This document shows, in pieces, positions 20,142 to 45,677 of a DNA stretch of 64,000 nt. The DNA lies in NCBI GenBank assembly GCA_022778805.1, contig JALFSN010000002.1, positions 62,001 to 126,000 of the forward strand. The letters run 5' to 3'. The notes under the pieces were generated by a model. The model searched no databases and was not told where the DNA came from. It worked only from the letters and a program-made list of their open reading frames with translations. Positions within the stretch are counted from its first letter, which is position 1, and each line of letters starts with the position of its first letter. Source of the DNA: Arcanobacterium sp. (GTDB taxonomy: Bacteria > Actinomycetota > Actinomycetes > Actinomycetales > Actinomycetaceae). Both the position numbers and the translations under genes were made by a program.

Positions 20142-21824
20142 TTAAAGCGTCTGTTTCACAAACGGGAAAGCGATTGTTTCCCGAATCCCCAAGCCCGTCA
20201 GCGCCATCAGCAAGCGGTCGATCCCCATGCCCATGCCTCCGGTGGGCGGGAATCCTTGTTCCATGGCCTCAATAAAATCTTCATCGAGTTGCATAGCTTC
20301 AGGGTCACCATTGGCTGCTTCTAAGCTCTGCTCCGTGAGACGCTCCCGCTGCACTACCGGATCGGCCAACTCAGAATATGCCGTAGCAGTTTCCGTACCG
20401 CGAATGTAAAGATCCCACTTCTCCGTCAGTCCTGGCTTCGAGCGGTGGTAGCGTGTGAGCGGCGATGTATCTTCTGGGAAATCACGTACAAACGTGGGCG
20501 CATAGAGTTTACTCCCCACTAATTCTTCCCAGATATCTTCAGCGATCTTGCCATTGACGGCGTAATCTTTCACCTTGACGCCGTGCGCCTGCGCGAGTTG
20601 CACAAGGCGTTCACGCGAAGTAGTGACGCTGACGTCCTCTCCCACAGCTTCCGACAGCGATGTGTACAAATCAATACTCGTCCATTCACCGGAGAGATCG
20701 TAGATACTTCCATCAGCCAGCGTCACCTGCAATGTGCCAAAAGCATCACGAGCAGCATTTTGTACGATCGCTCTAGTGAGCTCTGCCATCGTGTCGTACG
20801 TGGCATATGCCTGATATGCCTCAAGAGCAGAGAACTCTGGGGAATGCGAAGAGTCAGCACCCTCGTTGCGGAAATTCTTTCCGATCTCAAAGACGCGCTC
20901 GACGCCACCTACCACTGCTCGCTTCAGATAAAGCTCCGTGGCAATGCGCAGATACAGATCTTCATCATATGCATTAATGTGCGTGGTAAATGGCCGCGCG
21001 GCAGCTCCTCCGTGCAAGGTCTGCAAAATCGGCGTCTCAATTTCCACGTATTCTCGCTCTTCAAACGTGCGCCGAATCGAACGCATAACGGCGGCGCGCG
21101 TGCGAATCATATCGCGGGCATCTTGACGGGTAATGAGATCCAGATGGCGCTTACGCACCCGAGTTTCCTCATTGAGACTCATCAGTTCGCCCGATTCAGT
21201 GACGTACGTCTTAGGAAGTGGGCGCAGCGCCTTACTGGCCATCATCCACGCCGGAACTTCTTCTCTGGCCTCCCCCTCCTCCACGGCACTATCCGAGCGT
21301 GCCGGCGTATCGCCGTTCTCGTCGGAGCTGGCCGCACCGGCGTGGGAAGCGTCAGTCCCGTCTGTATCTGCACTAGAAGCGCCAGAAGCTTTGGCAAACA
21401 CAGAGAGTTCTCCTCGCTTGCTGGTGCCGATATAGCCATGCACAAAGAGGAAATCTCCAAGATCTACCTCCGTTTTGAGCAGATCCAAGGAGTCTTTGCC
21501 CACATTGGCGAGCGAGAAAATCGCCTGCAAGCGCTCACCATCTCCAGCCTGGAGCACAGCGAACGCAATTTTTCCAGAGAAGCGCATGAGCACTACACGC
21601 CCAGCAACCCCTACGAATTCTTCAGTCTCCACACCTGGCTCAAGCCCATCAAAGCTCTCTCGCACAGCGTGAATCGTGTGCGTGATCGGCACCTGTACCG
21701 GATACGGATCGCGCCCTTGAGCGAGCATCTGTGCGCGCTTCTTCTTCCGCACCTGAATCTGCTCAGGTACGTCTGCTGCCGAATCATGTGCCAGTTTCTC
21801 AGAATTCTTATTTGGAGTACTCAC
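20142..21824 (-). CDS. lysS: Lysyl-tRNA synthetase (class II) with ~50-aa acidic/Ser/Ala insertion
   Basis: TGIDRLLMALTGLGIRETIAFPFVKQTL-type C-terminus, RTRAAVMRSIRRTFEEREYVEIETPILQTLHGGAAARPF, FEIGKNFRNEGADSSHSPEFSALEAYQAY. Confidence 0.96.
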   Translation of the reverse strand: MSTPNKNSEKLAHDSAADVPEQIQVRKKKRAQMLAQGRDPYPVQVPITHTIHAVRESFDGLEPGVETEEFVGVAGRVVLMRFSGKIAFAVLQAGDGERLQAIFSLANVGKDSLDLLKTEVDLGDFLFVHGYIGTSKRGELSVFAKASGASSADTDGTDASHAGAASSDENGDTPARSDSAVEEGEAREEVPAWMMASKALRPLPKTYVTESGELMSLNEETRVRKRHLDLITRQDARDMIRTRAAVMRSIRRTFEEREYVEIETPILQTLHGGAAARPFTTHINAYDEDLYLRIATELYLKRAVVGGVERVFEIGKNFRNEGADSSHSPEFSALEAYQAYATYDTMAELTRAIVQNAARDAFGTLQVTLADGSIYDLSGEWTSIDLYTSLSEAVGEDVSVTTSRERLVQLAQAHGVKVKDYAVNGKIAEDIWEELVGSKLYAPTFVRDFPEDTSPLTRYHRSKPGLTEKWDLYIRGTETATAYSELADPVVQRERLTEQSLEAANGDPEAMQLDEDFIEAMEQGFPPTGGMGMGIDRLLMALTGLGIRETIAFPFVKQTL

Positions 21825-43053: not shown

Positions 43054-44100
43054 ATGAACGCCGCATCTGATCTCGTATGGCAACCGGATATACTTGGCCC
43101 TGGCTTTGAATCCTTGCGCGTCGATCTACACCCCGACGCCGAGGGGCCCGTCATCACGACGATTATCAGGCACCAGCCAACTGCCGATCCACAGGCACTG
43201 CCATTACTTCCCAGTTCCCATCAACACCGATCAGATTTCGCCTTCCTCGCACTGCACGGCTGGAATGACTACTTCTACCAGCGCGAACTCGCCCGTCATA
43301 TTTCAGCTCTCGGCGGCCACTTCTACGCTCTTGACCTGCGCAAATACGGGCGCTCTCACCTCAGCGGACAATCCTGGGGATACATCAGCGACCTATCGGA
43401 CTATGACGCCGAGCTCCACGCTGCACTCGACGTCATTTTTAGCGAACACCGCCAAAACACCCCTCTGTTCCTCTATGGCCACTCCACCGGCGGACTCACC
43501 GCTACCCTCTGGGCGCATCGACACCCAGGGGTACTCGCTGGTCTTATCCTCAACTCTCCATGGCTGGAATTACAGGGATCTATCAGCACCCGATTGGCTG
43601 GACAAGGGGCAATTGATACTCTAGCCCGCCTCGCTCCCAGCACCGTCATTCCTACCTCAGATTCCGGCTTCTACCACCGCGCTCTCACCGGTGGACACCT
43701 CGACGCTCATGATCTGCCAGCTGGAGCGGAATCTGACCCGTTTTTCACTACCGGCTGGGAGCCGAATGAACAATGGCGCAATACCACAAGCTTTGTGGTA
43801 CGAGCTGGATGGTTTAACGCCATTCTCACCGGACATCGGCAAGTAGCAGCCGGACTCGACATTGACGCCCCGATACTGGTGCTCACCTCGGCGCGCTCCG
43901 TGACGGGCAACGAATGGAGCGATGATTTTTTGGCCGCCGATTCCGTGCTCACCGTGGAAAATATCTGGAAACGACTGCCATTTCTAGGGCGTAAACTCAC
44001 ATTAGTCAAGCTCGATGGAGCCATCCATGACGTCCTCCTCTCGCGGGCTGCGGTGCGCGAGAGAGGATTTTCAGAAATTGCACGCTTTTTGAGCAATTGA
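43054..44100 (+). CDS. Alpha/beta hydrolase (Hydrolase_4 / lysophospholipase-like)
   Basis: LHGWNDYFYQRELARHISALGGHFYALDLRKYGRS, nucleophile LYGHSTGGLTATLWAH; start MNAASDLVWQPD (43054). Confidence 0.88.
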   Translation: MNAASDLVWQPDILGPGFESLRVDLHPDAEGPVITTIIRHQPTADPQALPLLPSSHQHRSDFAFLALHGWNDYFYQRELARHISALGGHFYALDLRKYGRSHLSGQSWGYISDLSDYDAELHAALDVIFSEHRQNTPLFLYGHSTGGLTATLWAHRHPGVLAGLILNSPWLELQGSISTRLAGQGAIDTLARLAPSTVIPTSDSGFYHRALTGGHLDAHDLPAGAESDPFFTTGWEPNEQWRNTTSFVVRAGWFNAILTGHRQVAAGLDIDAPILVLTSARSVTGNEWSDDFLAADSVLTVENIWKRLPFLGRKLTLVKLDGAIHDVLLSRAAVRERGFSEIARFLSN

Positions 44101-44113
44101 TAGGCTCACAGTA

Positions 44114-44356
44114 TGTTCAAACGAATGCGAATGCCCAGCTAGCGCCAACCCCTCTCGCGGGTGCAGACGTGACGCCGACCGCCAGTTGATTGCAGGCATG
44201 ACGCCGTACAGCACTGCATAAATCGCATCAATATCCGCAAGAGCCACGCTGGCGCTCGCACCGCTAGACGCAGGCAGCGCATAAAGCAGTGCATAAAGGC
44301 ATATCGTTGAGCTTCAATACGCATTCGCAGTGAGCGCATTAGGCTCTGTTTGAACA
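44114..44356 (+). promoter_or_regulatory. Candidate structured 5' leader (putative riboswitch-like element) of metX
   Basis: TGTTCAAAC (44114-44122)/GTTTGAACA (44348-44356); TGCGAATGC (44126-44134)/GCATTCGCA (44321-44329); GCACTGC (44211-44217)/GCAGTGC (44286-44292); AGCGCCA (44141-44147)/TGGCGCT (44250-44256). Confidence 0.45.
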
Positions 44357-44366
44357 AGTAGGAATC

Positions 44367-45677
44367 ATGATTGCAGCTTTTTCTAGCAGCTTTCCCTCTT
44401 CTGGCAGCTCCCTTTCTTCTGGCAGTTTTTCTGGCAGCTCTCCCGCCTATCTCGTTGGAGTGCCGAGCACCCGCGTGACGGACGCCGCTCCCGTGCGCGA
44501 TTACGACACCGGCTATAGTCCAAAATGGCGCACGAACCCGCCAGCTTCAGGGGCGTGGAAACCAGGAGATGACCCCCAGGAACGCCTCTTTGCCAACATT
44601 GGCACGTTCCATACCGAACTTGGCGCCGCTATCCCGAACGCCGTCATTGCATACGAGACCTGGGGCACGTTGAATGCCGATCATTCTAACGCCATCCTGC
44701 TCTGCCATGCGCTCACCGGCGATTCACATGCCACCTCCCGCGATGGCACCGACGGCTGGTGGTTTGAGGTAGTCGGCGCGGGCAAAGCAATAGACACAAA
44801 CGAATGGTTCGTCGTATGCCCAAACGTCCTCGGCGGGTGCCAAGGGAGCACCGGCCCCGCATCCATTGCGCCCGATGGTGAACCTTGGGGAGCTCGATTC
44901 CCCGAACTCACCATCCGCGATATGTGTGCAGCGGAATATCTGCTCGCTCAGCACTTAGGTATCTCCCGCTGGGCTATGGTGGCCGGCGCGTCGTTTGGAG
45001 GAAATCGCGCCATTGAGTGGGCAGCCAGCTATCCCGCTGCCGTGGCCTCCGTGGCCGTGCTCGTAGCCAATGGAGCTTGCACTGCCGAGCAAATCGCCTG
45101 GCAGCAAATGCAAATCACGGCCATCGAGAACGATCCGGCTTTCCGTAACGGCCACTACTACCACGTGCCAGACGGACAAGGCCCCCATCGCGGACTAGGC
45201 TTAGCGCGCGAAATCGCCCACCTCTCCTATCGCTGTGCCGCCGAACTCGCCGAACGTTTTGGCCGCACGCCGCAGCAGGGCGAAGACCCCTTGCATGGCG
45301 GACGCTACGCCGTGCAATCCTACCTCGATTACCACGCCGAAAAATTGGTGCGCAGATTTGACGCAAATTCGTATATCTGCATTTCACGGGCAATGATTAC
45401 GCACGATATCGGCCGCGCCCGCGGCGGCACAGCTGCGGTGCTCGCTTCGCTCGCCATGCCCGCGCTCGTAGTGGCCGTCGATTCTGATCGGCTCTTCTAT
45501 CCGGCAGACATGGTGGCGCTCGGGGCTGCCCTATCTGGATGTGACGGCGTGCCCGTGGTGCACTCCACGCATGGGCACGATGGTTTTCTCATCGAAAACG
45601 ATCAGGTGTGCAAAATTTTTCGTGATTTCTTCGCGAGCGAGCGCTTCCGCTCCTCTCAGGTGGCTTCTGCACTCTGA
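44367..45677 (+). CDS. metX: Homoserine O-acetyltransferase
   Basis: NAVIAYETWGTLNADHSNAILLCHALTGDSHA, GASFGGNRAIEWA, GHDGFLIE; Ser/Gly-rich N-terminal extension encoded by a short repeat. Confidence 0.93.
   Translation: MIAAFSSSFPSSGSSLSSGSFSGSSPAYLVGVPSTRVTDAAPVRDYDTGYSPKWRTNPPASGAWKPGDDPQERLFANIGTFHTELGAAIPNAVIAYETWGTLNADHSNAILLCHALTGDSHATSRDGTDGWWFEVVGAGKAIDTNEWFVVCPNVLGGCQGSTGPASIAPDGEPWGARFPELTIRDMCAAEYLLAQHLGISRWAMVAGASFGGNRAIEWAASYPAAVASVAVLVANGACTAEQIAWQQMQITAIENDPAFRNGHYYHVPDGQGPHRGLGLAREIAHLSYRCAAELAERFGRTPQQGEDPLHGGRYAVQSYLDYHAEKLVRRFDANSYICISRAMITHDIGRARGGTAAVLASLAMPALVVAVDSDRLFYPADMVALGAALSGCDGVPVVHSTHGHDGFLIENDQVCKIFRDFFASERFRSSQVASAL

Follow-up and report, generated by a model that had tools for sequence, protein, structure and literature searches.

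Methionine genes are usually placed under SAM riboswitches, T-boxes or repressors, and, to our knowledge, leader-peptide attenuation is hardly described for methionine. The classical attenuators (trp, his, leu, ilv) consist of a leader ORF with end-product codons near its end, a helix that starts from the stop codon of this upstream ORF (uORF), and mutually exclusive antiterminator and terminator structures; all of these elements recur in the leaders that we present here, the last of them in six genera. Actinobacterial leader peptides have been described for Leu, Ile/Val, Trp, Thr, Ala and Cys, and for Met only as metL of S. lividans, located before metNIQ (PMC8079986); a survey of the Actinobacteria from 2005 reported that methionine operons are not preceded by conserved RNA regulatory structures (PMC1262725).

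Here, we have analysed the leader of metX in a window of 64,000 nucleotides, i.e. the whole stretch of DNA under study, from an actinobacterial genome of 1.99 Mb (G000). A first-pass annotation had suggested that this leader may be a divergent or new methionine-pathway cis-regulatory RNA, with mutually exclusive helices that extend to the ribosome-binding site (RBS); the proposal holds in outline, but the class is a different one, as the annotation overlooked a short reading frame, MFKRMRMPS (peptides are written without their stop), and the evidence points to ribosome-mediated attenuation and not to a ligand-binding riboswitch. We consider it highly probable that the metX leader is a methionine-sensing, leader-peptide attenuator.

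Compared with the classical attenuators, the end product is methionine, the ORF is typically leaderless, a single regulatory Met codon often stands in place of a codon run, and an invariant CGA codon precedes it; the leader of the window has, moreover, no terminator, and its uORF codons can pair with the flank of the metX RBS. The metL peptide, which ends in CMCRRMCAF, is likewise a leaderless, Met-containing leader peptide of an actinobacterium, but it has 29 codons, precedes a transporter operon (metNIQ) and has been described without a family or a mechanism (PMC8079986); its type of ending, CRRMCAF, occurs in none of 41 genomes of a Streptomyces-like genus. In the actinobacterial LEU element before leuA, too, the downstream gene has its Shine-Dalgarno region paired with the run of regulatory codons, but this element concerns leucine and contains a larger pseudoknot, and its authors doubted peptide-based attenuation (PMC1262725); where the LEU element has a run of Leu codons in the context of leuA, the window has Met codons and met genes. 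The leaderless, cysteine-rich uORFs of mycobacteria (PMC4633059) and the cys leaders (PMC1262725) are also short ORFs with codons of the pathway product, differing in their cysteine codons and in the cys genes that they precede. We have found no earlier description of a class of leader ORFs with the Arg-Met (R-M) ending, metL of S. lividans coming closest, in a literature where subscription journals were thinly covered, and priority is not proven.

Leader reading frame and promoter of metX

Between the promoter and metX is located a 30-nt ORF, ATG TTC AAA CGA ATG CGA ATG CCC AGC TAG, whose nine codons encode MFKRMRMPS and include internal codons for the pathway product (Table 1). Because the -10 box is located exactly 6 nt before its ATG, the uORF is probably leaderless, i.e. 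the metX transcript probably starts at this ATG or next to it. The family profile is T-rich, or has TTG, at a -35-like distance, as is the case with TTGCAC in the window. Together with the conservation that is described below, the sequence strongly suggests that this ORF is translated and linked to methionine. At the N-terminus of metX itself (44380-44446), repeated TCTGGCAG units encode a Ser/Gly-rich stretch (SSGSSLSSGSFSGSS).

Table 1. Positions of the features of the metX leader and of metX in the window.
Feature	Position	Strand	Remarks
-35-like hexamer TTGCAC	44078..44083	+	17 nt 5' of the -10 box; inside the 3' end of the hydrolase gene
-10 box TAGGCT	44101..44106	+	uORF ATG exactly 6 nt downstream
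Leader-peptide ORF MFKRMRMPS	44113..44142	+	32-nt identity with the metY leader, family conservation, blind test
Proposed OFF-helix, 5' arm TGTTCAAAC	44114..44122	+	uORF codons 1-4; exact complement of 44348-44356; kept in G002 and G005
Internal Met codons of the uORF	44125-44127 and 44131-44133	+	CGA directly before each
Pair TGCGAATGC / GCATTCGCA	44126-44134 / 44321-44329	+	exact complement
P1, 5' arm AGCGCCA	44141..44147	+	from base 2 of the uORF stop; same register family-wide; exact complement of 44250-44256
Pair GCACTGC / GCAGTGC	44211-44217 / 44286-44292	+	exact complement
Conserved box GAGCCACGCTGGCGCTCGC	44241..44259	+	kept in the metX leaders of G000, G002 and G005 amid diverging surroundings
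P1, 3' arm TGGCGCT	44250..44256	+	with the 5' arm, fourth pair of the first-pass annotation
Proposed OFF-helix, 3' arm GTTTGAACA	44348..44356	+	adjoins the metX Shine-Dalgarno region
metX RBS AGTAGGA and start codon ATG (44367)	44357..44369	+	from the sequence
metX, homoserine O-acetyltransferase	44367..45677	+	NCBIfam NF001209 equivalog above cut-off, E 9e-127

Searched genome-wide, the leader has one further match: upstream of metY (O-acetylhomoserine sulfhydrylase), 32 bases are identical and the peptide reads, again, MFKRMRMPS. A third copy in the same genome is located before metF, as a longer ORF, MKTSAHDVHPVQGFALRARMRMRMCN, which ends in ARMRMRMCN and starts six bases after TACCAT. The inverted arms at both ends of the leader had also been taken for a possible degenerate, palindromic mobile element (MITE); the palindrome, however, is not scattered over the genome, where only the 32 nt of the uORF box that precedes metY form a second near-identical copy, as a functional counterpart, and relatives carry the leader at the same genomic site, with neither many copies nor empty sites seen, which leaves this explanation with hardly any probability. 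The same applies to a new or divergent riboswitch of the SAM type, which would suit the position before metX and the weak GCCAACCC...GGGTGC likeness that the annotation had pointed out: the comparison with Rfam, the SAM, SAM-IV and SAM-I-IV covariance models included, has given no match in the window at the gathering threshold; with E allowed up to 10, the leader matches unrelated families only, by chance, and 15 related leaders have no match with E up to 0.5. The GGGTGC part is missing from the leaders of the closest relatives.

The ORF is conserved in related genomes, with changes that are synonymous or conservative and thus in keeping with codons: the metX leader of G005 has synonymous changes only (AAA to AAG, CCC to CCG), and in the metY leaders of G001 and G002 only residue two or three is altered (MIKRMRMPS, MFIRMRMPS), while a TANNNT hexamer is located exactly six bases before the ATG in all three. 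In the metY leader of G015 (L007 / L030), TGA replaces the first CGA, giving MFK and a stop, yet ATG CGA ATG TCC AAC TAG persists; decay, an assembly error and the use of the inner ATG are alternative explanations of this change. DNA matches to the leader's middle part in G014, G023, G032 and G035, located inside or near unrelated genes, were set aside as chance, as was another leaderless CGAATG-stop match, at 20401 of the window, which is antisense within the lysyl-tRNA synthetase gene.

Distribution of the leader ORF across the family and the order

The pattern search of 213 genomes of the family has given 17 matches, against 0 for the reversed pattern that served as control; 15 of the matches precede metX, metY or metE-like genes, and the remaining two are weak. 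Further searches have added leaders of metF (G001, G002, G005, G184) and of metY (G062, G063, G189), and the identities of the metF and metE-like genes were confirmed in the survey. Several other pattern matches in the family (e.g. L088, L089, L091-L094) were judged by their neighbourhood to be chance.

For a motif-blind test, the upstream regions of metY and metX were chosen by protein homology alone, and a region was counted as positive if it contained CGN-ATG, zero or two codons and a stop, with an in-frame start that has TANNNT 5-8 nt upstream. Positive regions amount to 43 of 60, against 0 of 60 reverse complements, and CGA is used in all 43, although any CGN was allowed; among the window's genes, CGA accounts for 10.4% of the Arg codons and for 0 of the 16 Arg codons that precede ATG.

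The tabulated leaders (n = 70) span 29 of the 36 genera of the family, and 60 of them have TANNNT 5-8 nt before the ATG, nearly all at a spacing of 6 (31 leaders) or 7 (28 leaders). These mini-ORFs, located before metY, metX, metF or metE-like genes, end in CGA-ATG, usually two more codons, and the stop; the peptides are free upstream, but R-M-(x-x)-stop is kept (MFKRMRMPS, MFMRMPN, MFRRMCR, MKRM, MKTSAHDVHPVQGFALRARMRMRMCN). Their length ranges from 4 to about 27 codons, the shortest form, MKRM, being located before metX in genus g27. The recognisable core is absent from about a sixth of the sampled upstream regions of the family. The metE-like leaders of genus g18 (L018-L022) have a Shine-Dalgarno sequence and can be read as 21 codons (MVLNDPRSAMTMPAARMRMLG); the module is, therefore, not always leaderless.

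These regularities bear on two other explanations. The long exact identity that the metX and metY copies share, and the constant location of the box near the promoter, would suit a DNA operator that binds a methionine regulator just downstream of the promoter; the conserved part, however, keeps its frame to an ATG at the likely transcription start over the whole range of ORF lengths, the ORF ends in any of TAG, TGA and TAA, and the changes, such as those of G005, are codon-like, all of which makes an operator very improbable. The second explanation is nascent-peptide arrest, where the RMRMPS end of the peptide would itself stall the ribosome in response to methionine or SAM, with the stall altering the fold of the RNA, and it draws on the nearly invariant Arg-Met near the peptide end. 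We regard it as unlikely: the residues before this pair are not conserved, MKRM is too short for much contact with the exit tunnel, and with one codon, CGA, used invariably, decoding is a more likely cause than the amino acid. For the attenuator that we favour, the obligatory CGA is best explained by slow reading, which would make the decoding of the following codon more sensitive; in a his-leader assay in Salmonella, CGA is read slower than CGU and CGC (PMC4046918).

Beyond the family, 40 metY upstream regions of the order include 7 with strictly leaderless ORFs of the R-M-x-x type, namely MQTRRMCR, MSRRMCR, MLRRMCR, MFRRMCR, MLSRRMCR and MTTRRMCR (families f8, f9, f20). The same core is located before metY in families f2, f4 and f15, where it follows a GTG or ATG start that has no strict -10 match. 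Altogether, the core precedes metY in at least six further families of the order, of which three have the strictly leaderless form. In a core search at the level of the class, the matches outside the order were mostly chance. In order family f19, leaders L166-L170, L172 and L173 contain a conserved Met/Cys-rich ORF (roughly MTDxARxLxAxEAxRxxxMMMxxxxxMCCRMCR), which ends in CGA ATG TGC CGC TGA and is followed by a gene whose product has an OmpR/PhoB-type winged-helix C-terminus. L090 (G015:C25, about 23530, minus strand) encodes MMFSHTSMASSMCCLVFSSRMRMCK, with a Shine-Dalgarno sequence, before a gene that weakly resembles NtaA/DmoA FMN monooxygenases and may serve sulfur acquisition under the same control.

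Complementary segments and the metX ribosome-binding site

Every complementary segment of the first-pass annotation is present in the window, and AGCGCCA/TGGCGCT crosses GCACTGC/GCAGTGC, as it had described. GCTCAC (44104-44109) with GTGAGC (44330-44335), and the two copies of AGGCTC (44102 and 44341), are present as well, but GCTCAC and the first AGGCTC are probably untranscribed, because they are located in the -10 box or just after it, upstream of the likely transcription start. The overall folding stability of the leader does not exceed that of shuffled sequence (RNA z = 0.21, with 113 of 200 shuffles at least as stable), and the presence of two perfect 9-bp inverted repeats is mildly unusual, 99 of 2000 shuffles having them as well.

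In the metX leaders of G002 and G005, the genomes of the window's genus that were compared with G000, the paired segments are conserved in part: the TGTTCAAAC/GTTTGAACA pair is identical in G002, despite the diverged middle of the leader, and is kept in G005 via two G-U wobbles; AGCGCCA/TGGCGCT is identical in G002 and broken in G005; TGCGAATGC/GCATTCGCA and GCACTGC/GCAGTGC are not kept in these two relatives. Self-pairing within the conserved box GAGCCACGCTGGCGCTCGC (GCCA/TGGC) is possible and could compete with the P1 helix.

The off-state helix of the window is probably formed by TGTTCAAAC and GTTTGAACA, beside the metX RBS. The modelled cost of opening this RBS is 10.5 kcal/mol in the free leader, 10.7 kcal/mol with a ribosome at the stop codon and 5.1 kcal/mol with a ribosome at the Met codon; either difference is reached by 0 of 150 shuffles, a result that is not independent proof of the helix, because the opened region includes the helix end. 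On the basis of this modelling, we propose translational control of metX in the window. As an output of the whole family, RBS accessibility shows a mean effect of only -0.65 kcal/mol, against an average of -0.80 kcal/mol for shuffled window leaders, and the metX leader of G005 has almost no structure at the RBS; the output step thus differs among genes, and its exact form in the window is not general.

P1 helix, terminators and the proposed mechanism

Downstream of the uORF, the P1 helix starts, in most cases, from base 2 of the stop codon. Compared with shuffles, in one metY leader per genus, P1 has p<=0.05 in 14 of 28 leaders and p<=0.01 in 10 of 28; in the leader of the window, P1 alone is not significant (p 0.18). 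The two arms change together, with many compensating pairs (GACGCGCACG/CGTGCGCGTC, GACTGCGCG/CGCGCAGTC, TGACTACGCG/CGCGTAGTCG, AGCGCAC/GTGCGCT, GCGTGCC/GGCACGC, AGCGAGCA/TGCTCGCT, AGCGCCA/TGGCGCT). In six genera (g12, g19, g20, g28, g52, g54), the 3' arm of P1 is at the same time the 5' arm of an intrinsic terminator, and P1 is, therefore, the antiterminator there; the overlap comes from the terminator scan and, for g54, which has a weaker T-run, from inspection, and in g12, g52 and g54 the 5' arm of P1 starts a few bases 3' of the stop. Exclusive structures among which a ribosome could choose are thus present in six genera of the class, and modelling suggests them for the window.

The terminator scan has found no terminator-like hairpin with a T-run in the metX leaders of G000, G002 and G005, and most leaders, the window's included, are without an intrinsic terminator, which only a transcriptional form of attenuation needs. 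This would also suit a more general role of the uORF, either in shielding the leader from Rho, on which attenuation at actinobacterial cys leaders has been proposed to depend (PMC1262725), or in supplying ribosomes to metX through coupling or re-initiation, with no sensing of methionine. Such a role leaves unexplained why the Met codons have a fixed place and why the downstream genes are exclusively methionine genes, and the antiterminator/terminator pairs of the six genera also speak against it; we hold it to be quite improbable.

For the methionine-sensing attenuator, we infer that transcription starts at the ATG of the leaderless, nine-codon ORF or next to it, and that the ORF is expressed and translated. 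When charged Met-tRNA is scarce, the ribosome would stall at those ATG codons that have CGA before them, the final one being located two codons before the stop; the stalled ribosome would cover uORF codons 1-4 and block their pairing beside the metX RBS, P1 would be left largely uncovered, and metX would be translated. When methionine is plentiful, the ribosome would reach the stop, covering the 5' arm of P1 and freeing codons 1-4, the RBS helix would form, and the expression of metX would drop. The stalling and the sign of the response are modelled here on known attenuators. In the genera with terminators, the same uORF-P1 module would act via the intrinsic terminator that shares its 5' arm with P1. 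With the usual ribosome footprint, a ribosome that has the last Met codon in its A site reaches to about the stop codon and leaves P1 free, whereas a ribosome at the stop covers the 5' arm of P1; the spacing between Met codon, stop and P1 would be kept because this difference decides whether the arm is covered.

More tentatively, with somewhat less than even confidence, we suggest a minimal class that extends over the order, where one Met codon, sensitised by a slow CGA in a leaderless ORF that can be as short as MKRM, gauges elongator Met-tRNA, and where one module, connected to terminators or to RBS helices depending on the genus, coordinates metX, metY, metF and metE-like genes without a riboswitch or a repressor. 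If leader-peptide attenuation is the right reading, much of an actinobacterial order controls its methionine synthesis via ORFs of 4 to about 27 codons that annotation has missed, which raises the questions of how one Met codon can serve as the sensor, though methionine also starts the leader peptide, and of why CGA must precede it.

CATTCG, the complement of the uORF core, was considered as a family-wide pairing partner and rejected, occurring in 8 of 70 leaders against 4 expected, which is not significant. In the outgroup metY leaders L197, L199, L201, L207, L226 and L235, a conserved box, AGCGCACGTTCGGCNTGCCC or a near variant, is located after the uORF stop, and its GCGCACG part can pair with a downstream CGTGCGC, apparently as a P1 helix that is shifted by a few bases.
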